Virus record (IMG/VR): IMGVR_UViG_3300013132_000245
Location: 1-24,868 of that record
From: a virus
Length of the DNA: 24,868 nt
Strand: one strand, 5' to 3'
The position numbers and the translations under genes are program-made. This document shows positions 5,574 to 24,772 of the stretch, piece after piece; within the stretch, counting starts at the first letter, position 1, and each line of letters starts with the position of its first letter. The notes beneath the pieces were generated by a model, which saw nothing but the letters and a program-made list of their open reading frames with translations, made no database searches and was not told the origin of the DNA.

Positions 5574-5742
5574 GATTGAACACCGGAGTATAGACAGGTT
5601 CTACTACTGTCTCAAGTGTCATATTACTTGCCCATTCGTGAGCAGATTCTCTGGATTGAAACAACCCATAGATAAGTGATTCCTGCTCATAGGGCAGTAG
5701 TGAGCGGACTATAAATCCGCTCACATACATACCTTCTATCAT
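5566..5742 (-). CDS. Hypothetical protein, 58 aa
   Basis: ATG 5742 overlaps the stop of the amidotransferase gene as TGATG and is preceded by GGGGGTGG. An upstream in-frame ATG at 5793 would abut the palindrome at 5794-5808 with no room for a ribosome-binding site, so the internal start is preferred. The product (MIEGMYVSGFIVRSLLPYEQ...) has a SRESAHEWA helix and no obvious motif. Direct coupling to the amidotransferase suggests a linked function, but no family is recognised. Confidence 0.6.
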   Translation of the reverse strand: MIEGMYVSGFIVRSLLPYEQESLIYGLFQSRESAHEWASNMTLETVVEPVYTPVFNRG

Positions 5743-6605: not shown

Positions 6606-6620
6606 AGGTAAAGCCTTTCT

Positions 6621-6635
6621 GTACGATTATCGTAC
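6621..6635. promoter_or_regulatory. 15-bp palindrome, copy 4 (GTACGATTATCGTAC)
   Basis: A perfect copy that fills most of the 31-nt gap between the amidoligase stop and the amidotransferase start. It directly precedes the ribosome-binding site. Confidence 0.88.
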
Positions 6636-6636
6636 G

Positions 6637-8199
6637 TTAGTCGTCTTGATTCTCCACGTCGCGCTCATCACGGAAAGCCTTGAGCATGAGTGCGTTTAGG
6701 TTTGAGTATTGCTTTTGATTAGCATGAACGTGACCACAGAAAGCGAGCCATGACAGCGCATTATTCGTGGCGTTCACTTTGAGATTGCGAGTGTATTCGA
6801 CTCCGGCATGTACGAACTCGATAGCACCGAGTACGCGTTCAGGTCGAAGTGAACCCTTGAAGATACGAACCTCCAGCGTAGTATCGTTCTCAGTATTGAC
6901 CGCAGTATGCCGGTCGAATCCCTGCTCACGAACCTTCTGCCAGAGATGACCCTTATCTTGGAAATTAGCATAGCCGGACTTACGACCTGCCAACTTACAG
7001 ACTTGGGCTTCGTTGTCATACACGAGTTTGATGAATCGTAATTCGTGTGTCTGACGTGACGAGATGTGTTCTGAATAGTTATCTGTACGAGAATCGTACG
7101 GAATACCGAACGCGTCACGAGAGACGTGAACGTGAAGTCCGCAAGTGTTAGTATCCCACGAGCGCAGACCTAAATTACGGAATGAGGCGAATCTATCGAA
7201 CCCGAAGTCCTTACGAAACGCCTCAAGCGTGTGTGGGTGGCTAACTATCTCGAACCCATTGTTGAGCGAGCCGTCGTACTTGAGATAGACACGCTCGCCT
7301 AGACTATCCTGAACGCTTTGAGCGCAATCTAAACGCTCGCCACGCACAGACTCGACTTCTAACTCAATGCCAAAGTAGAGGCGAGTCTCAGGGTCTCGCT
7401 CTTTTGGAGGGAAGAAGTAGGGTCGTGGCTTGTAGCCGTAATCATGGATAACGCCCGAGTCGTAATCGTCGTCACACTCGTGGTCGTCTCCGTCCCAATA
7501 ACCCACGTCACATGTGGAGCAGAAGAAGCGGTGTCTGTTGACACAACGTTCACAGAATTCCTCGCCGTCAATGTGATTGATGTAGTCGTTGTGGTGATAA
7601 CTATGACACCACCCGCACTCGAAGTAGTCTTCATCTAGGTTAAATCCGTTCTCTTGGAGGATAGAATCTACGCAGCGTTGGCACTTATCATGACCCTCGA
7701 AAGAGATGATACGTACGTATTCTTCGTATTCCGGCTTTTCTGAAGCATCTCTAAACGAATTCCAATGGAATCCGCTAGAGATGTACCACATGTCGCAACA
7801 CCGAGCGTGATGCCGACAATGTTGGTGAACTTGTACGATAATCGTACAGTCGTCTTGCCGGTGAGCCGAATCTAATGGGTTGGTTTCTGAAGCGGGTGTA
7901 CCGCATGCGTAGCAGATAGGGGTATCAGCCACTATCGGATAAGTCTCTACGGATACAATAGGCGTCGTTTGCCTGAGATAGTCGAAGCCGACCTCATCTT
8001 CCATACTGAGATGGGCACCCATTAAATGCCGCCACATCTTCTTATGACACCCGAGGCAAGCAACGTATGGCGTATCGCCAACACCGCAATTTCTGTACGA
8101 ACTATGATTAGCGAGTGAGTGCGTGAATAGAAACTGTGTTGTATAACACGTCTCGCACTTCTCGACTTCGACCATAGCCCATGAGGGCTGATTAGTCAT
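6637..8199 (-). CDS. Zinc-finger / amidoligase (COOH-NH2 ligase) protein
   Basis: The C-terminal part (about 274-495) matches the phage amidoligase family, which has a glutamine-synthetase-like fold: FGIELEVE (276-283), YDGSL (308-312), EIVSHP (317-322), GLHVHVSRDAF (354-364) and EVRIFKGSLRPE (443-454). Such enzymes are predicted to join a carboxyl to an amine using ATP. The first 270 residues are packed with Cys/His knuckles (CxxC at 15-18, 48-51, 96-99, 173-176, 195-198, 216-219 and 227-230) and probably bind several zincs, perhaps for targeting. ATG 8199 is chosen for its CGAGAG ribosome-binding site and 8-nt overlap with the membrane-protein gene; ATG 8214 is the alternative. The neighbouring class II amidotransferase is the expected ammonia donor. 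Two palindromes lie inside the gene. Confidence 0.82.
   Translation of the reverse strand: MTNQPSWAMVEVEKCETCYTTQFLFTHSLANHSSYRNCGVGDTPYVACLGCHKKMWRHLMGAHLSMEDEVGFDYLRQTTPIVSVETYPIVADTPICYACGTPASETNPLDSAHRQDDCTIIVQVHQHCRHHARCCDMWYISSGFHWNSFRDASEKPEYEEYVRIISFEGHDKCQRCVDSILQENGFNLDEDYFECGWCHSYHHNDYINHIDGEEFCERCVNRHRFFCSTCDVGYWDGDDHECDDDYDSGVIHDYGYKPRPYFFPPKERDPETRLYFGIELEVESVRGERLDCAQSVQDSLGERVYLKYDGSLNNGFEIVSHPHTLEAFRKDFGFDRFASFRNLGLRSWDTNTCGLHVHVSRDAFGIPYDSRTDNYSEHISSRQTHELRFIKLVYDNEAQVCKLAGRKSGYANFQDKGHLWQKVREQGFDRHTAVNTENDTTLEVRIFKGSLRPERVLGAIEFVHAGVEYTRNLKVNATNNALSWLAFCGHVHANQKQYSNLNALMLKAFRDERDVENQDD
7085..7099. promoter_or_regulatory. 15-bp palindrome, copy 5 (variant), inside the amidoligase gene
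   Basis: GTACGAGAATCGTAC, one mismatch in the inner arm. On the minus strand it encodes Y-D-S-R-T within the amidoligase domain, just after the HVHVSRDAF motif. Confidence 0.75.
7833..7847. promoter_or_regulatory. 15-bp palindrome, copy 6, inside the amidoligase gene
   Basis: GTACGATAATCGTAC, a perfect 7+1+7 repeat. Here it is read in a different frame, encoding T-I-I-V within C-T-I-I-V-Q, in the zinc-finger region of the amidoligase protein. Confidence 0.82.
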
Positions 8200-8350
8200 G
8201 TTGCTCTCGTTCATAAGTGAGAGCCAAGTCGCGCCATGATTTAAGGCTACGACTTAGACGAGCGTTTGCTATGGCGGTTGTGAGTACGAGCGCCATAGAC
8301 GAGATGAGTGCGATAGTAATACCGACTATCTCGATAGGGTATAGATACAT
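8192..8350 (-). CDS. Small single-span membrane protein, 52 aa
   Basis: ATG 8350 is preceded by AAAGGAAAG. The product has a short N-terminus (MYLYPIEI), a hydrophobic helix at about residues 8-30 (VGITIALISSMALVLTTAIANA), and a basic amphipathic tail (RLSRSLKSWRDLALTYEREQHD) that should lie in the cytoplasm. It is the first gene after the promoter at 8481-8509 and overlaps the amidoligase start. The juxtaposition suggests a membrane anchor or regulator for the amidoligase module, but this is inference only. No family is recognised. Confidence 0.65.
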   Translation of the reverse strand: MYLYPIEIVGITIALISSMALVLTTAIANARLSRSLKSWRDLALTYEREQHD

Positions 8351-9941: not shown

Positions 9942-11813
9942 GTGGGTGCTATATCAGGAGACGAACATTACTCCGTAAAGGCTGCCAAAGAGGCTAAAGC
10001 CAAAGTTTTAGAATTTTTACGCCAAGGTCTCCCTCTCCAAGAAGCCATCCTTAGGGCAGACCGCCAGCCTGATGTACTCAAGGACTGGAAAAAGGACACC
10101 AAGTGGTGGAAGGAAGTTGAGAGGGCGAAGGAAGAGGGGGAGCGCGCTCTTAGTATCGTATCTGGAGACGCTAAATATAAAATCGGCTTTGCCGAGTTCT
10201 CCCGCGAGTTCCTTGACTCCCCCATCTTCCCACATCACCAATCATGGATAGACGTACTGGAGAGCCGCGAGCCTTCATGGTTAGACCCTGTCATGACCTA
10301 TGAGCCTGCCAGCGCCAAACGGTTACTGATTAACGTACCCCCTGAGCATGCCAAGTCCACGGTCATCACAGTCAACTACTGTGTCTACCGGATAGCCATG
10401 AACCCTAACGTTAAAATTACGATTGTCTCTAAAACTCAGGAACGTGCTAAGGAGTATCTCTACTCCATCAAGCAGCGCCTCTCTCACGAGAGGTGGGCTA
10501 AGATGCAAGCCATCTATGGAAGCACCGGTGGCTGGAGGGAAGACGCCGACTCTTGGAAGGCTGACCGAATCTACATAGCCCGTGACTCTACCGAAAAAGA
10601 CCCTACCGTACAGGCTTTGGGTATCGGAGGTCAGATTACTGGTGCTCGTTCAGATTTGATTATCTTGGATGACGTTGTGACCACTTCCAACGCTCATGAA
10701 TGGGAAAAGCAACTACTCTGGCTACAGAGGGATGTCATAACTCGTTTAGGTGATATCGGCAAGTTGCTTATCGTAGGGACGCGTATTGCTCCTAATGACC
10801 TATATCGGGAGATAAGAAACCCAGAACATTGGACTGGTGGCAAGACTCCTTTCACATACTTTGCCATGCCTGCAGTTTTAAGTTATGACCAAAACCCAGA
10901 GAACTGGAAAACTTTATGGCCTAAGAGCCATATACCATGGGAGGGTTCTGATGAGGGTATACTTCCAGATGACAAAGGGCTTTACCCTAAGTGGGATGGC
11001 CCCGCTCTATTTCGTCGTCGTTCCGAGGTCAGTCCTTCAGCATGGGCATTGGTTTACCAACAAGAGGACGTACAGGAAGATTCGATTTTTCCGCCTATAT
11101 GCGTACAAGGTTCAATCAACCGGATGCGCAAGCGAGGAAACCTAAAACCCGGAGTACCCGGACATCCTAAAGAACGAGGCGCTTGGTATACCATTATGGG
11201 CCTAGACCCAGCAATGAGTGGTAATACTGCTGCTGTAATTATGACAGTAGACCGCAGTACCCGCATGAGATATATTTTAGATGTAGAGAATATGCAGGAC
11301 CCGACACCTCAAAAGATTCAAATGTTAATTGAGGAGTGGGTAGAGAAATACCAACCTCAAGAATTACGTATTGAGATTAACGCACATCAAAAGGCTTACG
11401 CCCTTGATGACGACTTGCGTTCATACCTAGCAACTAACGGGGTAAGATTCTCGAGTCAGTTTACTGGTAAAAATAAATGGGATACGTCTTTTGGTATAGC
11501 CGCTATGTCAGGTCTTTTTGGGACTATGCGTAATGGTGAACATCAAGATGACAACCTGTTAGAGATGCCATCTCAAGATGGCTCTGAAGGAATCAAGGCA
11601 CTAGTACAGCAACTTATTACATGGAGACCTGAAACCAAAGGTAAGACCGACTGTGTTATGGCTTTATGGTTCTGTGAACTACGTGCCAGAGAAATTATAG
11701 GTTCTTCGCAATTCAGTCAAAGTCATATAAAAAATAGATGGGCTACGCGCAGACAACTTAATAATCGCTATACAGTCAATGTAAACGATTATGAAATGTC
11801 GATGTACGAATAG
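9942..11813 (+). CDS. terL: Terminase large subunit with small-subunit-like N-terminus
   Basis: The 623-residue protein packages DNA into the prohead. The ATPase part shows a Walker A-like NVPPEHAKST (131-140) and Walker B DLIILDD (238-244), then IVGTR motif III. The nuclease part shows MGLDPAMSGN (D422), LRIEIN (E478) and KTDCVMALW (D570), the acidic triad of the RNase-H-like terminase nuclease. Residues about 10-70 (AKVLEFLRQGLPLQEAILRADRQPDVLKDWKKDTKWWKEVERAKEEG) resemble the helix-turn-helix of small terminase subunits. No separate small-subunit gene is seen upstream. The start is GTG 9942 with AGAAGGG upstream. It opens the virion operon and follows a long structured leader. Confidence 0.93.
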   Translation: MGAISGDEHYSVKAAKEAKAKVLEFLRQGLPLQEAILRADRQPDVLKDWKKDTKWWKEVERAKEEGERALSIVSGDAKYKIGFAEFSREFLDSPIFPHHQSWIDVLESREPSWLDPVMTYEPASAKRLLINVPPEHAKSTVITVNYCVYRIAMNPNVKITIVSKTQERAKEYLYSIKQRLSHERWAKMQAIYGSTGGWREDADSWKADRIYIARDSTEKDPTVQALGIGGQITGARSDLIILDDVVTTSNAHEWEKQLLWLQRDVITRLGDIGKLLIVGTRIAPNDLYREIRNPEHWTGGKTPFTYFAMPAVLSYDQNPENWKTLWPKSHIPWEGSDEGILPDDKGLYPKWDGPALFRRRSEVSPSAWALVYQQEDVQEDSIFPPICVQGSINRMRKRGNLKPGVPGHPKERGAWYTIMGLDPAMSGNTAAVIMTVDRSTRMRYILDVENMQDPTPQKIQMLIEEWVEKYQPQELRIEINAHQKAYALDDDLRSYLATNGVRFSSQFTGKNKWDTSFGIAAMSGLFGTMRNGEHQDDNLLEMPSQDGSEGIKALVQQLITWRPETKGKTDCVMALWFCELRAREIIGSSQFSQSHIKNRWATRRQLNNRYTVNVNDYEMSMYE

Positions 11814-11820
11814 GAAAATA

Positions 11821-13551
11821 ATGGTAGATATTAATGCTATTGCACGGAAAGTAGATGCGCTTAAAGCACGCAACTCTAGCCGTGATGCAAGGATGCAGGA
11901 TGTTCTTGCTATACGCAAAGGTCAGATGGCTGATATCTATCCAGACCTATTTCCAGAAGGTCTTGATAAGACCATGGTTGCTAACTTTGTCGATGTCGCG
12001 GCGCGTGACTTGGCTGAGGTATTAGCACCACTCCCATCTTTTAACTGCTCTACTACTAATGTAACTAATGACAGGGCTAGAATTTTTGCTGACAAGCGCA
12101 GCATGATAGCCAATAACTACGTATATCATTCACGTTTACAGTCTCAAATGTATTGGGGAGCAGACTGGTATTTTACTTATGGCTTTTTGCCTATCATTGT
12201 AGAACCAGATTTTGATGCAGACTTACCTCGTATTCGAGTAGAAGACCCAATGGGTGCCTACCCAGAGTTTGATAGATTCGGAAGATGTGTTTCTTATGCT
12301 AAACGTTACTACAAAACTTTAGGTGAATTAGCAGCAGAGTATCCTGAGTTATCTTATCAACTGCTTGGTCGAGAAGGTTTTAATCAAGATACAAGTAGTT
12401 TTATTGAAATGATTCGTTATACCGATAAAGAGATAACAGTTCTTTATCTACCAACACGCGGGAATTTAATTTTAAATGAAGCGACCAATCCACTAGGCAA
12501 AATGCTTGTTAGCGTGGCACGTCGCCCCGGTGTCGATGAAGAGTCTCGTGGTCAATTTGATGATGTAATTTACGTACAACTTGCAAGAGCGCGATTTGCT
12601 AACCTTGCTATGGAGGCTGCTGAAAAAGCCGTACAGGCTCCGTTAGTTGTTCCAACAGATGTTATGGATATGCCTATGGGGCCGGATGCGATTATTCGCA
12701 CAGCCACTCCACAAGCAGTAGGCAGAGTACGTCTTGACGTTCCTGCCGCGGCTTTCCAAGAACAGGCTGCTTTACAATCAGAATTGCGTCTTGGTGCTCG
12801 TTACCCAGAGGGTAGAACAGGCACTATTGATGCAAGCATCATTACAGGTCAGGGTGTGCAAGCGTTGCTTGGTGCATTCGACTCTCAGATTAAGGCTGGA
12901 CAAACCATCCTTGCTGAGTCTTTTGAAGATGTAATAAAACTATGTTTCGAAATGGACTCAGTCCTTTTCGATAAAGAAAAGAGTGTCAAGGGAGTTGCGC
13001 AGGGAACTCCGTACGAGTTAAAGTACAAACCATCCAAAGACATCAAGGGTGATACTTCTATTGAAGTACGTTACGGCTTGATGGCTGGACTAGACCCATC
13101 GCGTGCCTTGATTTTCTCTTTGCAAGCCCTTGGTGCTGATTTAGTATCAAAGGACTTTATTCGTCGTGAATTACCGTGGAGCGTAAATGTCTCTATGGAA
13201 GAGCAGCGTATCGAAATTGAAAAAATGAGAGATAACTTGTCTGCTGCTATCACGGCAACTGCTCAATCAATTCCAGCCATGGCGGCTCAGGGTCAAGACC
13301 CATCGCCACTAATTCAAAAGATTGCTGATGTGATTGAAAGACGACGCAAGGGGGACACTATAGAGGCTGCTGCATTGGCGGTTTTCGAACCGCAACAAAT
13401 GCAGCCAGAGATGACACCTCCGGGCCAACAGGCTCCGGTTGAGCAGGCTCCCCCGTCCCCAGCCGCTCCCGGACAACCTGCCGGTGGTGTCCCTCAAATG
13501 GGTGGAGGCGCACCCGACCTAGCATCAATACTGGCTGGCTTAGGAGGATAG
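11821..13551 (+). CDS. Portal protein
   Basis: The 576-residue product lies directly after terminase, the usual portal position. It has the composition of a portal: an N-terminal helical part, a central region with VEDPMGAYPEFDRFGRCVSYAKRYYKTLGELA, the segment RTGTIDASIITGQGVQALLGAFDSQIKAGQ resembling the portal stem, and an ITATAQSIPAMAAQGQDPSPLIQKIADVIERRRKGDTIEAA crown-like end. The last 50 residues are Pro/Gln/Gly-rich and probably disordered. It forms the ring at the DNA-entry vertex. ATG 11821 is chosen because TAGGAAAA lies just upstream; ATG 11791 would overlap the terminase gene without a ribosome-binding site. Confidence 0.85.
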   Translation: MVDINAIARKVDALKARNSSRDARMQDVLAIRKGQMADIYPDLFPEGLDKTMVANFVDVAARDLAEVLAPLPSFNCSTTNVTNDRARIFADKRSMIANNYVYHSRLQSQMYWGADWYFTYGFLPIIVEPDFDADLPRIRVEDPMGAYPEFDRFGRCVSYAKRYYKTLGELAAEYPELSYQLLGREGFNQDTSSFIEMIRYTDKEITVLYLPTRGNLILNEATNPLGKMLVSVARRPGVDEESRGQFDDVIYVQLARARFANLAMEAAEKAVQAPLVVPTDVMDMPMGPDAIIRTATPQAVGRVRLDVPAAAFQEQAALQSELRLGARYPEGRTGTIDASIITGQGVQALLGAFDSQIKAGQTILAESFEDVIKLCFEMDSVLFDKEKSVKGVAQGTPYELKYKPSKDIKGDTSIEVRYGLMAGLDPSRALIFSLQALGADLVSKDFIRRELPWSVNVSMEEQRIEIEKMRDNLSAAITATAQSIPAMAAQGQDPSPLIQKIADVIERRRKGDTIEAAALAVFEPQQMQPEMTPPGQQAPVEQAPPSPAAPGQPAGGVPQMGGGAPDLASILAGLGG

Positions 13552-13818: not shown

Positions 13819-14253
13819 ATGGCAGAAGGTATGAGAACATCTGGAGTCGGCAAGAATTCCAAGCGTATCGACTTAGATAAAGCCAGAAAAGTTCAACGTC
13901 AGGCTAAGATTCAGAACGCACCCGGTGGTGCTTATGGTCAACGCGCTGAGTTAACTGAACTTGCTAGTGGCGCTCCAATGCCACAAGGTCCACAACCTGC
14001 TGCTGTACCGCAGATAGCATCTCGTCAACAGATGTCTCAGATTCCTTCTGTTGGTATTTTTGAACCTACGCAGCGCCCTGATGAACCAATTACTGCTGGT
14101 TTAGCAACTGGCGATGGTCCCGGTCCTGAAGTATTACAGACTCCCGTAACCGCACCTGACCAACTTGCTGTTCTTGCTCGCGCTATGTTTGCTGCTAACC
14201 CTACACCTCAGTTACGTAGACTTGTCGAAGCCTTCATGCAAGAAGGACGGTAA
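13819..14253 (+). CDS. Hypothetical Pro/Gln/Ala-rich protein, 144 aa
   Basis: ATG 13819 follows GAGGA at the end of the previous gene. The product is low in complexity and probably disordered in the middle (GAPMPQGPQPAAVPQIASRQQMSQIP). Short helices lie at the start (DLDKARKVQRQAKIQ) and end (DQLAVLARAMFAANPTPQLRRLVEAFMQEG). It couples to the giant gene by TAATG. It could be a linker or chaperone for the giant protein. No family is recognised. Confidence 0.7.
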   Translation: MAEGMRTSGVGKNSKRIDLDKARKVQRQAKIQNAPGGAYGQRAELTELASGAPMPQGPQPAAVPQIASRQQMSQIPSVGIFEPTQRPDEPITAGLATGDGPGPEVLQTPVTAPDQLAVLARAMFAANPTPQLRRLVEAFMQEGR

Positions 14254-17200
14254 TGCCACAATTAGGTAAGGATTGGAACAAGTACCAGTATACAAGTGTT
14301 TTCGACACCACAAATACTAATCGTGTACTTGCCAACGCCGTAGATACCCAGTTACAAGGTCTTAACCCAGAGATAAATAATAATTTTAATTCGCTTGTTA
14401 ACAAGTTTCCTAATCAAAGTAAAGATTTCTTACTAGGTGCTGCTAAGTTAGGCTTAAATTCTAACAGCAAAGGTATCGAAAGACTAGCCTCTGTTGATGG
14501 TTTAGCGCAACTAAAGCAAGATTTGGCTAACGTAGATAATTTAAAGTCTGTAGCAAAAGAAGATAAAGGTTTACTTCAGGGCATCAAAGATGCTTTGTAT
14601 GCTGGAGTTAAGGGTACAACTCGCGTACTGTTTGCTACTTTACAGGCTCCTTATCAATATACAACCACATTAGCACGTGAAATATACTCTACTGCACGTG
14701 GCGAAAGCACAGGTTCTGTATCAGAACGCTTTCAAAGAATAAATCCTTTAACTGGTTTGACATCGGAAACTACAAACCTAGGTCAATTACTTGAAGCAAC
14801 CAAAAAAGGAATTGCTGATGGTAAGAAAATTGATACCGGTGCTGGTTTCTTCATAGCGCATGACTCTAAAGTTGCTAAGTCACAGGCTAAAGCAATGCGT
14901 GCCTATGGTCGTATTAATGACCAGTCATTCACAATTGGACGTATGGCTCTTAATGGGCTAGGTGCTGACCCTAATGGAACGCCTTATCGCGTTATGTCAG
15001 GTGTAGTTGATGCAGTATTAGCCGTTGGAACTGACCCATCTGTATGGGTAGGACCCGGTAGCGTTACTAAAATCATCAAGAGCGGAAAAGAACTACAAGG
15101 CGCTACAGAGTCAGCAAAGCGTGTAGTAGCAGCACGTGATGAAAAAATCGCAGCCAAGCAAATTGAAGACATTAAGGCTGAAACTTTGGCTGAAGAAAAA
15201 CGTATCAAAGAGTTTCATGGTCAGAAGAAAGATGTTATTCGCGAAGTAGATAATACTTATCTAAAGGCTGAACGTAATCTTAAGAGAACTAAGCAGTCAA
15301 CAGAACGCGCTAGAGTGCGTATTGCTGCTCAACAGTTAACTCAAAACCTATCAAGAGTAAAAATTGGCGAGGCTGGACTTGGTGCCCAACTCGATAACAA
15401 TGCTATCGGTAATTTTGCCCTAGACATTGTCCAAAATGGCAAGAACAGAGAGACGATTGATTATCTTGGCCAGATGTCTGCTGACCTAACTAACACCAAG
15501 AGAGCGTTTACAGGTTTATATTTTGAAGAAGTTCCCGATGCTGGTAGGTTACATCTTGGGGCGTACGGTGACGATGAGTTTATTGTTGCTGTTTCGGATA
15601 AAGCCCCGCTCAACATCTACGACATTAACACAACTTATGAGTCTGCGACGCTTGCTGAAAGAGCGCTAGAGACAGAACGACGTGGCGCATTCTTTGATGA
15701 ACTATTCCGTTTAACTAATGACCCAGATTTACCATTAGCAACACGCGAAGGTATAGATGAATTTATCGGAGCAACTACTCCGGGTAACACTTTGATGAAA
15801 TCATCTTATGATGATGTCCTCTTTGGTGAAGGTTCTGAATCTGTAGCACGACTTATCCAGCGTGCTATTGATACACAGAACGATGATGTAGTACAGTTAG
15901 TTGTATCTGCTATACAGAATGCTTGGAAGGCAGATGGATTCTCCAATATCCGTGCTATCCATGGTGGTACTGGCGGAGTCGTACTAACCAACTACGAGAA
16001 GTTCTCTGCTCGCTATATCAGCATTAGCGATGTACTTGATGAGACAGCCGAAGGACGTATGGGGCCTGAAGCCTTTGCTAGACTGCTTGGCTCCATCAAG
16101 GGTGCAGAAGACCAACTTGCTGATGCTCAGAAAGCATTTGATGATGCTCAGTTAACTTATAGCACCGTTAATCGTGACCTTAAAGAGATAGATATTCTAC
16201 AAGAGTTCGTTAAGAGAGACCCCGAACTCTATGACCAGATAATTAAAGACCCTAAAAATGCCGGTATTGCCCGCCTTATGGACATTGCAGATAAAATTAA
16301 GTCTGGCGAATCGCGCAAAGAGTTGATTCGTTCTGAGGTAGGTTTGCTTGATTCCTTTGGTGGCACTCTCAAAGCCGACCTTAAAAAAGCAGCAGGATAC
16401 GTACTAGGAAAGCGATTTGCACAAGTTGCTCAAATCGTAGCCCGTGAGACAGACCATGCTAGATTAAATCGTCTTTTTGGCCGTAAATTAGACCAAGCAA
16501 TGGTAAAGGACCTTGTAGATGCGCAAAGTTCTGATGAGGTTATTAGCATTTTCCTTAAGCATCTTGCTGCTCCTGAGTCTGACCCTTCTATTTATCGTTC
16601 TCTTGCCCTCCGTGGCGAAGCGGCTCTTAACTCAAGTAACCCATTATACAAGATGGTTGCGCCAGTTGCTCGAAAGGCTCTACCAATTGTTGAAAAAACT
16701 GAGCGTAATTTTGGTAGATACTTTTCGCGTTCGGTAGTATTACCACTTGATGACCTAGATAGGCTTATCAATGGAATTGAAGATTGGATGTCTTCGGCTC
16801 AAATACCTGAGAACATTATCGATGATGTTATTAATCGTCTGTCCAAGGCTGATACTTCAGAGGTTCGCTCTGGTATTGTCTTCCAAGAAATTGAAAGAGC
16901 ACAGGTTTTAATTGCTGACCAGATTGCTCCGGGCGATAGAGCACTAGCAGAGGCTATCAAAGAGACCTTCCGTGCTACAGGTAGACAGAACGCAGTTGTC
17001 AAGCAATACGTTGCTGAGAGACTTCCTAAGAACGAAGTACCTCAAGTGGCTATGCTCAATGGCGAGATGTTCAAGTTTAACCCTGACCAAGCCATCTTTG
17101 AGTATCAATTCCTAGATGACGTAGTTCGTTTGCCTGATACTCGTGACATCAAGAAGATGGTTACTAAGTATACAGAGCATAAGGCTAAGTATGGTGCTTC

Positions 17201-20066
17201 TAGAGCACTAGATATCTTTAACGATACTATCGGAGATGCTTGGCGTACTGCTCAGTTGGCTTTCCGTGGTGCTTACATCATACGCAACATTGGTGAAATG
17301 CAGTTCCGTCAGTACTTCTCCGGACACGATAGCATATTTAATCACCCATTGTCTTACATTGCGATGATTGCAGCAGACCCAGAGGGTGGCGCTTTCCGTA
17401 AATTTTTGGCTCAAAATGCTCGTTACAAGAAAGACGTATTAGGGCAAAGCCTACTTGCTAAAGATGTAAAGGCTCAAAAAGAATTTTCTAAGGGTATTGA
17501 GGCTGTTCTTAACCAAATTGGCAGACAACATAACTCTAATGACCCACGTTTTGCTTTCGTAGGTCGTATTTATGAAGCCGTAACACCTGAACAGCCACAG
17601 TATCACTTGGCTTTAGCCAATACTATCATGAGAGCGTACTCTGATAGCCTTATTCCGCTAGTTGCTGCGGTACGTAAAGTGGAACAACAAGATGATTTTA
17701 TCTATGCTTTGATTAAAGGCGAAGGTAAGTACAAAGGAATCATCAAAAACCTTATTGAAGGTGGTCGTAACGGTGTAGAACCGCAAGACTTTGCTAAGTT
17801 GTTCCTCAAGGATTCCGTTCCAACTAGCAAGGGTGTCTACAACCTAAGCCCTGATAACTTCATTTTCGAGAACGTTAAGAACTTCGTCTTTGATGCAAAG
17901 AACTCCACTGGTTCTGTAGAGCGCTATATCCAGAACTTAACTGGTACAGGTGAGGGTTCTGTCTACATTCGTGACTTGCTTGCCTATGGCAGAGCAATTG
18001 TTGATGGAGAAGAACTCTTAGTACCCGGTTATGGCAAAGTAGATAATATTATTGATGTGGGGGATGTTGATACTGCCTTTAGAAAGGCTATCACTAAATA
18101 CTTCCCGGCAGAAAAAATGCCTAATGCTACTGCTATTGGTCTTCGTGACCAAGCCTTCGGAGCACAGGACATCAAGTATTTGGATGCTGCTGTTAACTGG
18201 TTCTTCAAGGGTGCTACCAAGGTTGAGAACTTAGTCAACTTCGTACCTGAAGCACAGATGGCTTATTGGGACCATGTAGGTCGATACGTTAATATGCTCA
18301 ACGATGCAGACCTTAAGGCTTTGCTACCTATCGCAGATGAGGCTCTAAAAGGCTTTACAGTAGGCGGTAAGCCACTTCGTAGACATCCAGTACTTAAAGC
18401 ACTCAAGGCTGAGGTACGTGCCCGCAAGAAGGGTAAGTCTGTAACCGATGGAATCACTAGACAACAACTAGATTCCATGGCCGGTAAGAAGGCTGCCGAG
18501 TATACTGAGAATCTTTTCTATAATGCTGCTAAACAACGCCAGCACGCTAATGCTATGCGAGCAATTTTCCCCTTTGCTCAGGCTCAATTCAATACCCTGT
18601 ACAAGTGGACAAAGTTGCTTAAAGATAATCCGATACAGTTCTATAAGTTAGGTCGTGCGTATAACGCTTTGACCCAGCCCGGTTCTAGTGCTATCTATGA
18701 CTTGACTGGCGTAGAGTATGATGAGAACCAAGGATTCTTCTATGAAGACGAATTTGGTGAGACTAGATTCCGTTATCCGCTTGCTGGAAGCGTTATAGGG
18801 GCTTTAGCAGGCAAAAACTTTGATTCTGCCCAAGCACTACAACTAACAGCCCCCGTACAAGCCCTTAACTTGGCTTTTGGGGCAGTAAACCCAGCAGTAC
18901 CCGGTATTGGACCTGCCGGACAGATTTTATACGCTGCTAGCGGCAAATCTGGCGCTTTTGGACCTGAATGGAACTTTTTACGTCAGATTATCTTCCCATT
19001 TGGTGAACCTGAAGGTGTAGATGACTTAGTTCTACCTGCGTGGCTACGTAAATCCTTCTTTACCTTCATGAACAACGATGCTATAGTTGAGCGTGGAGTC
19101 AAGGATTGGGCTTCATACCTAGCATCTACAGGTGATTATGGTGATAATCCACTGGCAGATGATGCTGCTCGTACCGAATTATTCAATGATGCACGTAGTC
19201 TATCCCGCTGGGCAGGCTTCTTTACGGCTCTATTCCAGAATATTGCTCCTGCTACACCATCGCAAGAGGTGTTTGCTAAGGATAAAAACGGGATGTTCCG
19301 AACACAAACTGCTATTTACAGCGCATGGGACCAGATAGCCAAGAAACACCCCGGTGACTACTTCAAGGCTGTAGGTGAATTCGCTGATACTTTTGGCGCC
19401 AAGAACCTTTTAATCATCTTAGGTGGCTCTACAAGAGCGGTACGTGGCACAGAAGATGCTTGGGCATTCTTAAATAACCACCCAGAGGCTGCTGATAAGT
19501 ATGCTACCTCAGAGGCAGACATAGTTCCGTACTTCTTCCCCGGTGGAGAAGCGGCTACTGCGTACTATAACTGGCAAAAAGCATCAGGAAGACGTCGCCC
19601 TCTCAAGCCTGAAGAGTTAGCAGAGCAGGCTCAGAACATTGTATATCAGATGGCTAAGTCACAGGTATCCGAAGAGCAGGCAGAAAACGGTTATTCAGAC
19701 GTTTGGTACACCGAACAGATGATTAACTTGAATAATAGATTTGAAGGCGTACCTACAGTAAGCGTGAGAATCGGACAGGCTGAGGCTAAGGCTGAACTAA
19801 TCGGTAAAGCCTTAAAAGACCCAGCATTCAAAGATTCGCCTATCTATGAAGATACAAAAACCTTCTATGAGGCTTATACAAGGGCTAAGAAGTACTTACA
19901 AGAGGTACGTACTACGGCTCAACCAGACCTTTCAAGCACGTTCTGGTACACCCAAGAAATATCTAAGGAACTACAGGGACTTGCTATGCAACTTATGGTC
20001 AAAAACCCAGCGTTCTCGCGTATGTATTACGGTGTATTTTCAGGACTGATAGAGACAAAGGAATAA
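14253..20066 (+). CDS. Giant virion protein, 1937 aa (possible ejected internal protein)
   Basis: This single reading frame takes up nearly a quarter of the window. Residues about 300-350 are a charged, coiled-coil-like region (AAKQIEDIKAETLAEEKRIKEFHGQKKDVIREVDNTY...). Residues about 419-590 (FTGLYFEEVPDAGRLHLGAYGDDEF ... AWKADGFSNIRAIHGGTGGVVLTNYEKFSARYI) have a layout reminiscent of ADP-ribosyltransferase-like domains in phage polyvalent proteins. This is tentative, because I cannot place a full catalytic triad. Residues about 600-650 look coiled-coil. The C-terminal third has hydrophobic and aromatic patches (FPFAQAQFNTLYKWTKLLKDNPIQFYKLG). Its position between portal and scaffold, its size and its multidomain build suggest a protein packaged in the head or ejected with DNA. 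A tail tape measure is less likely because it precedes the capsid genes and lacks a typical repetitive helix. Confidence 0.7.
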   Translation: MPQLGKDWNKYQYTSVFDTTNTNRVLANAVDTQLQGLNPEINNNFNSLVNKFPNQSKDFLLGAAKLGLNSNSKGIERLASVDGLAQLKQDLANVDNLKSVAKEDKGLLQGIKDALYAGVKGTTRVLFATLQAPYQYTTTLAREIYSTARGESTGSVSERFQRINPLTGLTSETTNLGQLLEATKKGIADGKKIDTGAGFFIAHDSKVAKSQAKAMRAYGRINDQSFTIGRMALNGLGADPNGTPYRVMSGVVDAVLAVGTDPSVWVGPGSVTKIIKSGKELQGATESAKRVVAARDEKIAAKQIEDIKAETLAEEKRIKEFHGQKKDVIREVDNTYLKAERNLKRTKQSTERARVRIAAQQLTQNLSRVKIGEAGLGAQLDNNAIGNFALDIVQNGKNRETIDYLGQMSADLTNTKRAFTGLYFEEVPDAGRLHLGAYGDDEFIVAVSDKAPLNIYDINTTYESATLAERALETERRGAFFDELFRLTNDPDLPLATREGIDEFIGATTPGNTLMKSSYDDVLFGEGSESVARLIQRAIDTQNDDVVQLVVSAIQNAWKADGFSNIRAIHGGTGGVVLTNYEKFSARYISISDVLDETAEGRMGPEAFARLLGSIKGAEDQLADAQKAFDDAQLTYSTVNRDLKEIDILQEFVKRDPELYDQIIKDPKNAGIARLMDIADKIKSGESRKELIRSEVGLLDSFGGTLKADLKKAAGYVLGKRFAQVAQIVARETDHARLNRLFGRKLDQAMVKDLVDAQSSDEVISIFLKHLAAPESDPSIYRSLALRGEAALNSSNPLYKMVAPVARKALPIVEKTERNFGRYFSRSVVLPLDDLDRLINGIEDWMSSAQIPENIIDDVINRLSKADTSEVRSGIVFQEIERAQVLIADQIAPGDRALAEAIKETFRATGRQNAVVKQYVAERLPKNEVPQVAMLNGEMFKFNPDQAIFEYQFLDDVVRLPDTRDIKKMVTKYTEHKAKYGASRALDIFNDTIGDAWRTAQLAFRGAYIIRNIGEMQFRQYFSGHDSIFNHPLSYIAMIAADPEGGAFRKFLAQNARYKKDVLGQSLLAKDVKAQKEFSKGIEAVLNQIGRQHNSNDPRFAFVGRIYEAVTPEQPQYHLALANTIMRAYSDSLIPLVAAVRKVEQQDDFIYALIKGEGKYKGIIKNLIEGGRNGVEPQDFAKLFLKDSVPTSKGVYNLSPDNFIFENVKNFVFDAKNSTGSVERYIQNLTGTGEGSVYIRDLLAYGRAIVDGEELLVPGYGKVDNIIDVGDVDTAFRKAITKYFPAEKMPNATAIGLRDQAFGAQDIKYLDAAVNWFFKGATKVENLVNFVPEAQMAYWDHVGRYVNMLNDADLKALLPIADEALKGFTVGGKPLRRHPVLKALKAEVRARKKGKSVTDGITRQQLDSMAGKKAAEYTENLFYNAAKQRQHANAMRAIFPFAQAQFNTLYKWTKLLKDNPIQFYKLGRAYNALTQPGSSAIYDLTGVEYDENQGFFYEDEFGETRFRYPLAGSVIGALAGKNFDSAQALQLTAPVQALNLAFGAVNPAVPGIGPAGQILYAASGKSGAFGPEWNFLRQIIFPFGEPEGVDDLVLPAWLRKSFFTFMNNDAIVERGVKDWASYLASTGDYGDNPLADDAARTELFNDARSLSRWAGFFTALFQNIAPATPSQEVFAKDKNGMFRTQTAIYSAWDQIAKKHPGDYFKAVGEFADTFGAKNLLIILGGSTRAVRGTEDAWAFLNNHPEAADKYATSEADIVPYFFPGGEAATAYYNWQKASGRRRPLKPEELAEQAQNIVYQMAKSQVSEEQAENGYSDVWYTEQMINLNNRFEGVPTVSVRIGQAEAKAELIGKALKDPAFKDSPIYEDTKTFYEAYTRAKKYLQEVRTTAQPDLSSTFWYTQEISKELQGLAMQLMVKNPAFSRMYYGVFSGLIETKE

Positions 20067-20067
20067 G

Positions 20068-21366
20068 ATGGCTGAAACCAATTGGAAGTCGGCTCCGGGT
20101 CCTAGCGAAGTCGCTGCCTATAACTCAAAAAGAACAGCATTTCAACAGGCTGGAACCTTTGCTAATCAGAATTACGACCCTACAGCAGAAGGTTCTTTTG
20201 AGTTAAAGTCTCGCCTTTATACTGACCCAGCAGCCTATTCCTTTGCTATTAATAATTGGGTATCCGGCTGGCGTAACGACACTACTAGTGTTCCTAACTC
20301 TAATTTCAAGAATCGCCTAGATTACATTCAGTTTTTGCTACGTGGTAGTGGTCTATCGACTGAAAAAGGTGGCGTATCTCGCGGTATCTTAACCGTAAAA
20401 GACCTTGCCGGTCTACGTAATGCATCTCAAATAGCCCTTGCCAATGGCATTGGTTTTGAGGATGTAATGCTTTCTATCTACCAGAGCAAGCAGGCTGCTG
20501 GCGGAGATGGTGGTCCTAAGTATAGCAAGCAGATGTCTACATCGCTTAAATTGCTTGATTTAGGTGACGCTACCAATAAACTATCTACTGCCTACTTCAA
20601 TATGTTTGGTGTATACCCAACTGAAGAAAACATTAAGTCTTTTAAGACTTATTGGAACACCGAGGCTAGAGCACAAGTTGGTACTGTAACCACATCTCAA
20701 GTTACTGAAAAGGGCAAGGTTAAGGTAGGAAAGAAGACCGGAACTGGCAAAGTTAGTACTACCGATACGGTTACAAAAGGTTATGGATTTACCGAGGAAG
20801 AACAAGCCCAAACAATGGCTAACTACCTCGCTAAACAATTCAATGTAGACCCAAGCAAAATGATGCAGGGAGGGGCGGTCAAACGTGTATATGACGGTAT
20901 TAGAGAGATTTATAGAAACAACCTTTTGCAGGAACCTGCTTTCGAATCTGTCGCTGGTGTTATCAAAGACTTACTCTCAACCCCAGACGAGACAGCCTAT
21001 ACAACCAAACTCACCGCAATTCAGCAAGGAGTAAGGGATAAGGCTGCTAAATTCTACCCTACTCTTGCAGAAGACCTAAAGAACGGTAAAAACATCAGCG
21101 AATACTCAGATGTATATTATGAACTCCTTGCTAATACTTGGGGAGTTACATCGGCATCTGCCTTAAAATCCAATAAGGATGCTACTGCCTTGGTTCAAAA
21201 TGCTTTTAACTATACCGATGCTAAAGGCAATGTGCGTATGCAAAATTTGACAGAGTTTCTTGCGAGTGCTCGAAATAGCAAAAATTATCTTGAAGGTTCA
21301 CAGGCTATTGCTGGAGCAGGTCGTCTAGGTGACAAGATTATCGCAGCGATGGGTGGTGGTCGATAG
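20068..21366 (+). CDS. Hypothetical virion-associated protein, 432 aa
   Basis: ATG 20068 follows AAAGGAATAAG, one base after the giant gene's stop. The product starts MAETNWKSAPGPSEVAAYNSK and is mostly helical. It has a Lys/Thr-rich linker at about residues 211-238 (VTEKGKVKVGKKTGTGKVSTTDTVTKG) splitting it into two parts, and a Gly-rich end (AGAGRLGDKIIAAMGGGR). No enzymatic motif is evident. Its place among the head genes suggests an internal or ejected protein working with the giant protein. No family is recognised. Confidence 0.72.
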   Translation: MAETNWKSAPGPSEVAAYNSKRTAFQQAGTFANQNYDPTAEGSFELKSRLYTDPAAYSFAINNWVSGWRNDTTSVPNSNFKNRLDYIQFLLRGSGLSTEKGGVSRGILTVKDLAGLRNASQIALANGIGFEDVMLSIYQSKQAAGGDGGPKYSKQMSTSLKLLDLGDATNKLSTAYFNMFGVYPTEENIKSFKTYWNTEARAQVGTVTTSQVTEKGKVKVGKKTGTGKVSTTDTVTKGYGFTEEEQAQTMANYLAKQFNVDPSKMMQGGAVKRVYDGIREIYRNNLLQEPAFESVAGVIKDLLSTPDETAYTTKLTAIQQGVRDKAAKFYPTLAEDLKNGKNISEYSDVYYELLANTWGVTSASALKSNKDATALVQNAFNYTDAKGNVRMQNLTEFLASARNSKNYLEGSQAIAGAGRLGDKIIAAMGGGR

Positions 21367-23189
21367 TGGCTAGAAAAAAAATTGTAGAGACCATTGTAGG
21401 CGTAGTAAGCAAAGTTTCTAAAACACCTGAAATCAATAAACAAATTGATATTATCAATGATGCTACTAAGGCCGCTGCAAAGATTGCTGAAAAACCAACT
21501 TTAACTAAATCAGATGCCGCTAAACTTGAGAAACTTGATGCTAAAGTAGAACAGGCTGTTCAAAAGGCTGAAGACCTAGGTGCTTCTACTTCTAAGAACA
21601 GTCCTTTAACTAAAGCAGAAAACTCTTACAATAAGTCTGCTGCTCAGGCTGAGAGCAAAGGTACTGCTAAAACTGCTGATGAAGCAAAAGCAAGAGCAGA
21701 GGCTCCAAAACCCACTCCTAAGGTAACTCCTGAGCCTACAGAAGGTCCTAAACCTACACCTAAGGCAACGCCTAAAGCCACTCCAAAGGCTACGGAAGAG
21801 CCTCAGGGCACCCCTAAAGCAACCCCTAAGGCTACCCCTAAGGCTACCCCTAAGAAAACTGACGAACCTGAGCCAACCCCTAAGGTAACCCCTAAAGCAA
21901 CTCCTAAAGCAACTCCTAAAAAAACTGACGAACCTGAGCCAACGCCTAAGCCAACTGTTAAGGGTACGCCTAAACCTACTATTAAAATACCAGTTCCTCC
22001 AGTAACTCCTGACGGCACACCGAGTGAAACACCCGAAGGTACACCTAAAGAAACACCAGCAGGTACACCTGAGGGTACTCCTGGTGGTACACCGGGCGGA
22101 ACTCCGGGTCAAACACCAAAAAGTACGCCAAAGGAAACACCAGACGGTACGCCAGATGGTACACCGGACGGCACACCGGATGGAACGCCTGAAGGTACTC
22201 CAGAGGGTACTCCTGAAGGAACACCTGAAGGAACACCTGAATCAACACCATCTCCAACTCCTGAAGTATCCGGAGAGGAAATGTGGTGGAAAATTCTTCA
22301 GGCTAAATTGCTTGCTGCGGGTATGCCCCGTGCTACCATTAACAAGTCTTACAGTTATTTTAAGCAATTTATAGTTGACTTTGGCGATAATGAAGACCAA
22401 TTGAATATCGCCATTGACCAGTTTTTCTACATGAAAGACTATAAAAGCATAACTTCGCCTTATTACCAAGACTTTGGTTTCTTCAATGAAAAACTAGAAC
22501 GTCCTAAACTACCTAAAGATTTGGTTCCATTAGTACTTGGATACCGTGATTTGGCTAAACGCTATAACATATCTGATAAGTATTCTAACAATGATGCTAT
22601 TCAGAAATATCTAATCAACGATGTATCTATCGCAGAGTTTGATGACCGTTTGAATACAGCCAGCCTAAAGGCTATTATGGCTGACCCGTTCTATGTCAAG
22701 TCATTGATGGAACTTGGATATATTACTGCGTCTTCACAATTAACTGACTTTTTCCTAGACCCAAATATTGGAACTATGGAAATGCAAAATCGTCAGAAGA
22801 ACGCAGCCTTCGTAACTGAAGCGGTACGTAGAGTAACGCCTGAAACTCAACTACAAGTTGATTTGGACTTTGCTAAACAACAGGCTGCTCGTTACTCTGC
22901 CCAAGGTTACACAGAAGCGCAGATTTCTACTTTAGCGGCTACTGGCTTTGAAAATGTAGCGGAGGCACTACCAACAACAGTTAAGTTGGCTAATATCTAT
23001 GACAGACCTACTGCCCCTGAATCAGCCTTGCGCAAAGATATCCAGTCTGAACTACAGCAAGAAGAGTTTATGAACCTTGCTTCTGCTCGTAGGAAGAGAG
23101 TTAAAGAGCGCGAAATATCTGCTTTCTCTGGTGGCTATGATATTGCACGCGGTGGACTTGGTGGCGCTTCCTCAGCAGGAATAATATAA
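21366..23189 (+). CDS. Virion-associated protein with long Pro/Thr repeat, 607 aa
   Basis: GTG 21366 overlaps the previous stop (TAGTG). Residues 1-110 are a Lys/Ala/Glu-rich helical region. Residues 114-300 are a repeat tract in two blocks: a Lys-rich one built on TPKA (114-207) and a Gly/Glu/Asp-rich one built on GTPE/GTPD (216-297). Residues 300-607 are a folded helical domain (EEMWWKILQAKLLAAGMPRATINKSY ... GYDIARGGLGGASSAGII). The tract is likely an extended flexible spacer joining two folded parts, possibly glycosylated on Thr. It is not collagen-like because Gly is not at every third residue. The gene ends the group of large proteins before the scaffold. No family is recognised for the folded end. 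Confidence 0.75.
   Translation: MARKKIVETIVGVVSKVSKTPEINKQIDIINDATKAAAKIAEKPTLTKSDAAKLEKLDAKVEQAVQKAEDLGASTSKNSPLTKAENSYNKSAAQAESKGTAKTADEAKARAEAPKPTPKVTPEPTEGPKPTPKATPKATPKATEEPQGTPKATPKATPKATPKKTDEPEPTPKVTPKATPKATPKKTDEPEPTPKPTVKGTPKPTIKIPVPPVTPDGTPSETPEGTPKETPAGTPEGTPGGTPGGTPGQTPKSTPKETPDGTPDGTPDGTPDGTPEGTPEGTPEGTPEGTPESTPSPTPEVSGEEMWWKILQAKLLAAGMPRATINKSYSYFKQFIVDFGDNEDQLNIAIDQFFYMKDYKSITSPYYQDFGFFNEKLERPKLPKDLVPLVLGYRDLAKRYNISDKYSNNDAIQKYLINDVSIAEFDDRLNTASLKAIMADPFYVKSLMELGYITASSQLTDFFLDPNIGTMEMQNRQKNAAFVTEAVRRVTPETQLQVDLDFAKQQAARYSAQGYTEAQISTLAATGFENVAEALPTTVKLANIYDRPTAPESALRKDIQSELQQEEFMNLASARRKRVKEREISAFSGGYDIARGGLGGASSAGII
21705..22265 (+). repeat. Tandem 12-bp-type coding repeats (TPKA then GTPE/GTPD)
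   Basis: Degenerate 12-bp units encode four-residue repeats. The first block uses forms of ACCCCTAAGGCT, and the second uses ACACCTGAAGGT or ACACCGGACGGC. Synonymous positions vary widely between units, especially in the second block. This argues for selection on the peptide, with only some recent duplication (for example the near-identical units around 21811-21855). Confidence 0.85.
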
Positions 23190-23311
23190 AAGAATCCCGA
23201 CACGGACCGACCAGCCCCGTGCGGTGTAAAAGACTGGTAGTACGAGCCAATATGGATTCCCCAGTTCATATTGAGGCGTGCGACAACTACTAACAGATGG
23301 GAGAGGTTGCT
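23190..23311 (+). promoter_or_regulatory. Structured leader before the scaffold gene
   Basis: In this gap three short complementary pairs appear in crossing order: CACGG (23201-23205) with CCGTG (23217-23221), ACCG (23206-23209) with CGGT (23222-23225), and ACCAG (23210-23214) with CTGGT (23234-23238). A separate 7-bp hairpin CAATATG/CATATTG spans about 23248-23273. Such crossing could form a pseudoknot. It may control expression of scaffold and capsid or mark an RNA-processing site. Confidence 0.5.
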
Positions 23312-23791
23312 ATGAGCAACGACCGCGATAACTATTGGGATGACGAAGAAGAAGGCGATACTGAACAGTACGACTTTTCTTCCGATACGGACCTAGTCAA
23401 AAAACTTCGTAAAGCCTTGAAGGCTGAACAGAAGAAGGCTAAGGAACTCGAGTCAACTCTTGGAGAGTTGAGTAAAGCCCAAAGAGAGCGGGTACTTAAG
23501 GATGTTCTTACATCCAAGGGTGTCAACATGAAAATCTCAAAATTCATACCCGCAGATTTAGATTCAAACGAAGAATCAATTTCAGCATGGCTTGATGAAA
23601 ATGCCGATGTATTCGGTTTTGAAGTTAAGAAAGATGCTCCAATTGGTCAACGTGACATTGCAAATCTAAGGCAAATGGATGTTGTGACTCAGAATGCTTA
23701 TTCACCCGAACGAGCAGATGAATTGAACATGAGGATTGACAACGCTGAAAGCGCTGACGAACTTCTTGCTCTCCTTCGCTCGCAACAGTAA
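23312..23791 (+). CDS. Capsid scaffold-like protein, 159 aa
   Basis: ATG 23312 is chosen for GGGAGAGG upstream; the in-frame ATG at 23297 lies within that signal. The product (MSNDRDNYWDDEEEGDTEQYD...) has a very acidic N-terminus, a long coiled-coil-like helix (DLVKKLRKALKAEQKKAKELESTLGELSKAQRERVLKDVL), a middle domain and a helical end (ADELLALLRSQQ). This is the standard build of phage scaffolding proteins. The capsid gene follows 30 nt later, as expected. Scaffolds direct procapsid assembly and then leave. Sequence identity to a named scaffold is not established. Confidence 0.75.
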   Translation: MSNDRDNYWDDEEEGDTEQYDFSSDTDLVKKLRKALKAEQKKAKELESTLGELSKAQRERVLKDVLTSKGVNMKISKFIPADLDSNEESISAWLDENADVFGFEVKKDAPIGQRDIANLRQMDVVTQNAYSPERADELNMRIDNAESADELLALLRSQQ

Positions 23792-23821: not shown

Positions 23822-24772
23822 ATGGCAAACGTCTATACAAGTACCACCACCCCTGGTGGTACCGCTGGTGGCGCTGGTCTAGTTCAGAAGGCATATGACC
23901 GCCTTCTTGAGTTCGCTCTCCGCTCAGAACCTCTAATCCGTTCTGTCGCAGATAAGCGTCCAGCCCGTCAAGCAATTCCAGGCTCAACTGTAGTTCTACA
24001 ACGCTATGTTGACCTAACCGCAAACACCACCGCTCTTACTGAAGATACTGACCCAGATTCAGTCGGAATTTCAACTCCGACCTCTGTAACCATCACTCTT
24101 GCTGAGTATGGTAATTCAGTTCTCGTAACTCGTGCGTTGGAACTCTTCAGTCTTGCTGATGTAGACCCAGCAATTGCAAATATCATTGCATATAACCTTG
24201 CTGATTCTATTGACAAGATTGCTATGGAAACACTCCGCGCTGGTAGCAACGTAATCTACGCAGGTTCCACCGCTACTTCTACAGCAACAATCACCGCTGC
24301 TGCTACTATCGCTTCTTCCAACATCCGTAAGGCTGTTGCTAAGTTGCGTACCAACCAGGCAAAGGGACGTAAAGGTTCTCTTTATTGGGTTGGTATTCAC
24401 CCAGAGGTTTCACACGACCTTCGTGCAGAAACAGGTTCAGCAGGTTGGTTGCTTCCAAATCAGTATGGTTCCGCACAGGACCGCATTTGGAATGGCGAAA
24501 TCGGAACTTACGAAGGTGCATACTTCGTAGAGTCTGCTCGTCTTTACAATGCAACTGATGGAGCATCTTCTGCTCGTAACTACCGCACAATTGTTTGCGG
24601 TCAGCAAGCACTTGCAGAAGCAGTGGCAGAAGAGCCACACGTAGTCATCGGACCAGTAGTTGACAAGTTGATGCGTCACCGCCCAATGGGTTGGTACGGC
24701 GTACTCGGTTTCGCTCGCTACCGCGAAGAGGCTTTGTTCCGCATTGAAAGCGGTTCTTCAATCGCTTCATAG
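23822..24772 (+). CDS. Major capsid protein (N4-gp56-like, HK97-type fold)
   Basis: The 316-residue product follows the scaffold gene and has the features of the N4-gp56 capsid family. These include the PGSTVVLQRYVDLTANTTALTEDTDPDSVGIST segment, VTITLAEYGNSVLVTRALELFSLADVDPAIANIIAYNLADSIDKIAMETLRAG forming the spine-helix region, and a C-terminal AEEPHVVIGPVVDKLMRHRPMGWYGVLGFARYREEALFRIES typical of the A domain end. It assembles the head shell. Codon choice is noticeably biased to C-ending codons compared with the large genes before it, as expected for a highly expressed gene. AAGGAG precedes ATG 23822 within a small hairpin. The N-terminus is Gly/Thr-rich and probably flexible. Confidence 0.88.
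   Translation: MANVYTSTTTPGGTAGGAGLVQKAYDRLLEFALRSEPLIRSVADKRPARQAIPGSTVVLQRYVDLTANTTALTEDTDPDSVGISTPTSVTITLAEYGNSVLVTRALELFSLADVDPAIANIIAYNLADSIDKIAMETLRAGSNVIYAGSTATSTATITAAATIASSNIRKAVAKLRTNQAKGRKGSLYWVGIHPEVSHDLRAETGSAGWLLPNQYGSAQDRIWNGEIGTYEGAYFVESARLYNATDGASSARNYRTIVCGQQALAEAVAEEPHVVIGPVVDKLMRHRPMGWYGVLGFARYREEALFRIESGSSIAS

Follow-up and report, generated by a model that had tools for sequence, protein, structure and literature searches.

A giant cysteine-free protein encoded between the portal and scaffold genes of an actinophage-type virus is probably ejected with the DNA

We analyzed a 24,868-base virus record (IMG/VR IMGVR_UViG_3300013132_000245; the window), which may be a fragment, for the role of a 1937-residue protein, the giant, encoded between the portal and scaffold genes. 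By sequence comparison, the giant is probably a large internal protein of a short-tailed actinophage-type virus that is ejected with the DNA, and it is the main member of a cassette of four genes (giant, g144, g432 and g607). We base this reading on synteny and homology with podoviruses, on a lack of cysteine like that of proven ejected proteins, and on the hydrolase-bearing relatives of a partner protein. The first-pass annotation had described a 1937-residue protein, and this was borne out: the gene (P0001) opens with an ATG at 14253, reads through 1937 codons without interruption and has a stop ending at 20066; its length is far beyond chance and its frame is kept open in relatives. Its placement between portal and scaffold was also right, except that it touches neither, since two genes intervene on each side, encoding 87 and 144 residues (g87 and g144) on the 5' side and 432 and 607 residues (g432 and g607) on the 3' side.

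The closest named records were OX376640 and OX376641, with a capsid 80% and a terminase 62% identical to those of the window. Passages of PMC10202952 describe E7 and F5 as cultured phages of a 'Ca. Planktophila' strain. Next closest were the Streptomyces podoviruses of the Beephvirinae, and both groups had a giant gene in the same place. A tblastn search of phage records with the window giant gave no match at an E of 0.01. The profile phrog_10618, of unknown function, matched the window giant at E 1.7e-7 as well as 9 of 13 relatives, and the giant of the Streptomyces-type phage Abafar matched it with 2377 bits. When whole chains were compared as profiles (leaving out L107, which has a broken frame), the window family scored 84% against the Streptomyces family, with a collinear alignment, and 11% against the E7 family. 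By segment, hhalign gave 96% (E 4.4e-9) for residues 1390-1600 and 77% for residues 980-1050 against the Streptomyces giants, and 80% for residues 200-300 and 72% for residues 1390-1600 against the E7 giants. Within the small set of loci examined, tblastn of the window giant matched 18 of 28 Streptomyces-type loci, mostly over residues 1360-1600 (E 2.5e-6 to 0.067), and none of the 10 E7-type loci. Homology and gene neighbourhood both point to the giant as a remote homologue of the Streptomyces podovirus giant (phrog_10618), with a weaker link to E7. The 29 annotated records carrying the Streptomyces giant, all from Streptomyces phages and including some duplicates, named it only as 'hypothetical protein'. 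Among short-tailed phages of Actinobacteria and their relatives the family is most likely widespread, and it is so far unnamed. No relative of the giant was found in one scan of bacterial genomes with two peptide patterns.

A first scan of IMG/VR gave 39 loci; a second confirmed 119 relatives, 80 of which we retained, with identities of 35-100%. In the first set, 26 of the 27 extracted relatives were open over 1918-1951 residues, the other (L033) being broken, while all 37 of the more distant relatives had 1908-1991 residues. Alignments left out L033 and contigs with a partial giant. All genes detected in the 81 loci lay in one order on one strand, and the full run of terminase large subunit (TerL), portal, g144, giant, g432, g607, scaffold and capsid was present in 29, with g87 detectable in 13 of these. 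The earlier remark that the giant precedes the scaffold held across these 81 loci. In L058, g432 was undetected, and the protein in its place grouped with the gp11 set of the Streptomyces-type phage FlowerPower. The interruptions of the giant in L033 and L107 reflect either sequencing error or real damage, and the same applies to the JXY1 records MN994275/NC_048854, where the giant was matched in four pieces across three hypothetical genes.

Complete copies of the four cassette genes at the family loci contained 3 cysteines in 183,280 residues. The giant accounted for one in 120,489 residues (61 of 62 complete copies had none), g607 for one in 26,517 and g144 for one in 10,822, and g432 had none in 25,452. 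In the same loci the number of cysteines per 1000 residues was 7.1 for TerL, 5.0 for the portal, 8.0 for g87, 0.73 for the capsid and 0.54 for the scaffold. Cysteine was absent from 63/64 giants of the window type, 10/10 of the E7 type and 15/18 of the Streptomyces type. The three Streptomyces-type exceptions (L095-L097) had their cysteine at residue 6-9, upstream of a start matching the annotated one, and because it precedes this start it is probably an artefact of the start chosen. The same lack was found in T7 gp15 and gp16, P22 gp7, gp20 and gp16, and N4 gp50, gp51 and gp52; these proteins are ejected according to passages of PMC8954989 and PMC12633501 and the abstract of PMC8402733.

Among 37 open reading frames (ORFs) of at least 400 residues, covering T7, P22 and parts of N4 and lambda, nine were cysteine-free: six ejected proteins, the lambda tape measure, the N4 capsid and N4 gp57. 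The FlowerPower giant was absent from the list of cysteine-free ORFs, probably since its mechanically called ORF starts upstream; the annotated protein has no cysteine. None of eight such ORFs of phage A-4L was cysteine-free. In the FlowerPower gp11 set, 19 of 29 rows had cysteine, each exactly one and always in the D-C-S-G stretch of an NlpC/P60 domain, where we take it to be the catalytic residue; cysteine therefore seems to be excluded unless needed. Passage searches of PMC4496689 and PMC12633501 found no occurrence of 'cysteine', and among the papers listed by literature searches there was no usable printed remark on missing cysteine in ejection proteins. The use of this property as a sign of ejection is our own observation and no accepted criterion.

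We also compared the partner proteins. The g432 family matched the FlowerPower gp11 family (hhalign 99.8%, E 1.5e-28) and gp12 family (98.8%, E 8.4e-17). An NlpC/P60 domain was present in gp11 (E 1.7e-29, residues 17-125) and an SLT domain in gp12 (E 3.6e-5, residues 8-95), and the part in common with g432 lay mainly C-terminal of these hydrolase domains. Since the homologues of g432 bear such domains, the cassette may be tied, indirectly, to passage of the cell wall. Only comparisons of g432 with FP11, FP12 and E7_442, which have zero shared loci, were used; pairs set aside because they shared loci were g607C/FP13 (38), g607C/E7_530C (11), g144/E7_147 (17), g144/FP7 (2) and FP11/FP12 (26). 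The g607 protein (21366-23189) has a long TP-rich repeat and its E7 counterpart (L042:15339-16928) a long run of GT repeats; both appear to be fast-changing linkers ahead of a conserved C-terminal part.

Scans of the window giant and of 13 or 34 relatives against Pfam, NCBIfam and PHROG found no consistent known domain, phrog_10618 being the sole consistent match. The Pfam scan of 34 members was run on two halves, one of which covered the best 25 of 39 families. General Pfam scans, whose sensitivity to N4-type enzymes was not checked, gave no N4-type RNA polymerase domain. An S4 RNA-binding-like stretch at residues 1220-1275 was rejected as chance, as it was seen in 3 of 13 members (best E 0.0068; S4 chains E 0.18) and then in 2 of 34, and a later profile search against Protein Data Bank (PDB) sequences with the deeper set listed no S4 chains.

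AlphaFold2 models of the giant in two pieces had a mean predicted local distance difference test score (pLDDT) of 67 and 63 and a predicted template modelling score (pTM) of 0.40 and 0.32; given the low pTM we trusted local parts only. Residues 340-650 (pLDDT mostly 75-94) were predicted to form an alpha/beta domain between long helices, with the rest of the chain mostly helical. The several distinct regions proposed earlier are borne out in part, by one confident domain within a mostly helical chain. The most conserved region, at about residues 1425-1555, had a pLDDT below 50 and may fold only with partners. Segment 300-640 had no match in the E7 and Streptomyces families (0.2% or less), and because of this the alpha/beta domain is probably a module specific to the lineage of the window giant.

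Foldseek placed chain B of the cyanophage A4 pre-ejectosome third among matches to this domain, with an E of 0.053 and a probability of 0.93, the other listed rows being at 0.18 or less. VIA-align ranked the same chain 31st (Z 5.3, rmsd 5.3 over 153 residues, model residues 348-594). Chains A and B of this structure (PDB 9k3a) are A4L_26 and A4L_27 of phage A-4L. A4L_26 (L121:16766-20110) and its relatives carry the label 'tail fiber protein; host specificity' in their records and in phrog_19395; this label is probably wrong, as it is given to a sequence identical to pre-ejectosome chain A. By eye, the giant could well pass for A4L_27- and A4L_26-like proteins fused into one, but hhalign gave no support for this. 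Coiled-coil and flagellin chains headed the VIA-align list for the N-terminal model, at Z up to 7.2, and unrelated helical chains that for the C-terminal model, at Z up to 6.0; we read both as common arrangements. In BFVD nothing matched the N-terminal model at E 0.001. Four entries matched the C-terminal one, with E from 1.8e-14 to 1.9e-5; they are unnamed or uncharacterized proteins, two of them from uncultured Caudovirales phages.

Several observations weigh against ejection of the giant. T7 gp14, which is ejected, has one cysteine, as does each A4 pre-ejectosome protein, while the lambda tape measure, the N4 capsid and gp57 have none; hence lack of cysteine is neither a sure nor a specific mark of ejection. 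At the capsid rate, one protein of 1937 residues would be cysteine-free by chance 24% of the time, so that a single protein is unremarkable and the weight lies in the contrast across the family, whose copies are related to one another. Profile searches against PDB sequences found no solved ejection protein at E up to 10. Simple hydropathy gave no conventional membrane span in the giant (highest 19-residue window 1.15), and passages of PMC8954989 report gp14- and gp16-type ejection proteins with predicted membrane-spanning segments. We found no hydrolase domain in the window giant or g432. The fold match to A4 chain B stands out yet is weak, below the level that would exclude chance, and A4 profiles, which were shallow, reached hhalign probabilities of 3.1% or less against the giant family. 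Proteins of the giant family are known from genes alone. Abafar is short-tailed by electron microscopy, at 16 nm (in passages of PMC11536984); the main text of the E7 paper has no microscopy, and the window phage is known only as a sequence. No paper on virion proteomics of this phage group was among the matches listed. The earlier suggestion, of a virion protein with several domains that is injected along with the DNA, is nevertheless the best supported as to injection (synteny, homology, cysteine and partner), although only one domain is confident and sequence searches gave no known enzyme domain.

As an unlikely alternative, the giant might be a core or inner scaffold within the head, arranging capsid or DNA about the portal and remaining there once the DNA has left; its gene is grouped with those of portal, scaffold and capsid, the protein is mostly helical, and the capsid and scaffold proteins are likewise cysteine-poor, which also counts against ejection. 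However, cysteine was about 90 times rarer in the giant than in the capsid of the same loci (0.008 vs 0.73 per 1000), and the adjoining g432 family has wall-hydrolase members. That the giant is a tail tape measure protein is very improbable. Its length, helicity and zero cysteine resemble lambda gpH (0 in 853 residues), but with the rule of 1.5 Angstrom per residue given in passages of PMC11536984, 1937 residues would span about 290 nm against the 16-nm tail of Abafar. The giant gene precedes the scaffold, and nine post-capsid proteins of E7 matched tail-fibre, tail, glycosyltransferase or unknown families or nothing, with no tape measure among them. The view that the giant lacks tape-measure character draws on the short tail of Abafar, which is a relative and not the window phage itself.

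We also considered an injected effector, likewise ejected: a polyvalent-type protein in which the alpha/beta domain works in the host as an active enzyme, of an ADP-ribosyltransferase-like or another kind. As a module this domain seems peculiar to its lineage, and in all 7 aligned relatives the region of A4L_27 that is its stand-out fold match has HG[TS] and then G[ST][AG].Y, a pattern (HG[TS]..Y) that we take to be ADP-ribosyltransferase-like. By contrast, neither H nor Y occupies any column of giant residues 340-650 that is invariant or conserved at 90% over 34 sequences, and scanning 34 members with E up to 1 gave no Pfam family of the ADP-ribosyltransferase kind (best 25 of 39 families). 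We therefore regard an active effector as quite improbable.

If the giant is ejected, it would be packed in the head near the portal together with g144, g432 and g607. At infection the cassette proteins, partly unfolded, would exit through the portal and the short tail before the DNA or along with it, and would refold in the cell envelope to make a passage for the DNA. The hydrolase domains present on the g432-type partners of the Streptomyces relatives would cut through the wall. Cysteine avoidance, which correlates with ejection among the proteins compared, would suit chains that unfold, thread a narrow channel and then fold again, free of disulfide traps. The alpha/beta domain (about 340-650) would be an apparent extra module of this lineage, without the conserved H and Y of the ADP-ribosyltransferase type.

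Table 1. Positions of the giant, its conserved and predicted regions, and the neighbouring genes in the window
Feature	Position	Strand	Remarks
Terminase large subunit (TerL)	9942..11813	+	phrog_38, E 1e-68
Portal	11791..13551	+	phrog_104, E 5.5e-30
g144, small cassette gene	13819..14253	+	phrog_8200; cysteine-free
Giant gene	14253..20066	+	1937 aa, 214.5 kDa, zero cysteine
Giant residues 248-270	14994..15062	+	conserved stretch around D..DP, common to E7 giant (segment 200-300: 80%)
Giant residues 336-650	15258..16202	+	confidently predicted alpha/beta domain and flanking helices
Giant residues 998-1025	17244..17327	+	near-invariant RTAQLAF...RNIGEMQFRQYFSGH stretch, common to Streptomyces giants (77%)
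Giant residues 1437-1512	18561..18788	+	most conserved stretch; structure poorly predicted; within 1390-1600, common to Streptomyces giants (96%)
g432, cassette gene	20068..21366	+	homologous to FlowerPower gp11/gp12
g607, cassette gene	21366..23189	+	phrog_8424; long TP-rich repeat and conserved C-terminal part
Scaffold-like gene	23297..23791	+	phrog_7813 (function unknown), E 1.8e-34; named scaffold family phrog_648, E 2.7e-05
Major capsid protein	23822..24772	+	phrog_1357, E 1.7e-79

Other genes of the window were noted in passing. A small protein encoded at 251-676, with a hydrophobic start, matched an aggregation-promoting-factor C-terminal model (NCBIfam, E 4.7e-20) and SLT (E 0.001), and is perhaps a secreted lytic enzyme. 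At 2768-4251, a weak metallophosphoesterase match (E 0.0075) is followed by a sigma-70-type factor (TIGR02937, E 4.2e-12), and Abafar has a similar neighbouring pair. On the strand opposite to the giant, 5742-8214 (-) holds two cysteine-rich genes, one for a class II glutamine amidotransferase-like protein (PF13230, E 1.8e-05) and, next to it, one for a 525-residue protein (phrog_16683, unknown; E 1.1e-33) that by its motifs looks like an amidoligase. They are possibly a protein or peptide modification pair.

According to passages of a review (PMC8954989), phi29-like podoviruses of Gram-positive hosts have no ejection proteins, and the way in which podoviruses of Actinobacteria get past a thick wall is thus a fair question. 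A tentative and rather doubtful answer is that short-tailed phages of Actinobacteria have an ejectosome of their own, which combines in a single giant chain, free of cysteine, what is spread over two pre-ejectosome proteins in A4 and has three cysteine-free partners as helpers, strict avoidance of cysteine marking the proteins that thread the portal in a way readable from the genome. Were this to hold more generally, proteins passing through the portal could be recognised simply by their lack of cysteine. We read the giants as one family, so far without a name, of very large and probably ejected proteins, and the cultured relatives E7 and Abafar, the latter in the DSMZ collection, make ejection testable.

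In their way of working, T7 gp15/gp16, P22 gp7/gp16/gp20 and N4 gp50-gp52 would resemble the giant; these virion proteins are cysteine-free and their genes lie with those of head or tail, but they differ in gene order and no sequence relation to them was found; their hosts have an outer membrane, whereas the closest cultured relatives of the window phage infect Actinobacteria. A4L_27 and A4L_26 of cyanophage A4 are similarly large internal proteins, the former with the weak fold match described above. They are, however, encoded by two separate genes after the tail tube genes, have one cysteine each and lack sequence support. The giant of Planktophila phage LanE43AprE7 (OX376640, 8727-14021) has the same place and zero cysteine, but it has 1764 residues, no direct tblastn match and no counterpart found for residues 300-640. 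The Beephvirinae giant (FlowerPower gp9, Abafar_00008; phrog_10618) is about 300 residues shorter, and again no counterpart of window residues 300-640 was found; it has remote homology, a place between portal and scaffold/capsid, zero cysteine and g432- and g607-type neighbours in common with the window giant, while the g432-type partners at its locus, unlike that of the window, bear NlpC/P60 and SLT domains.

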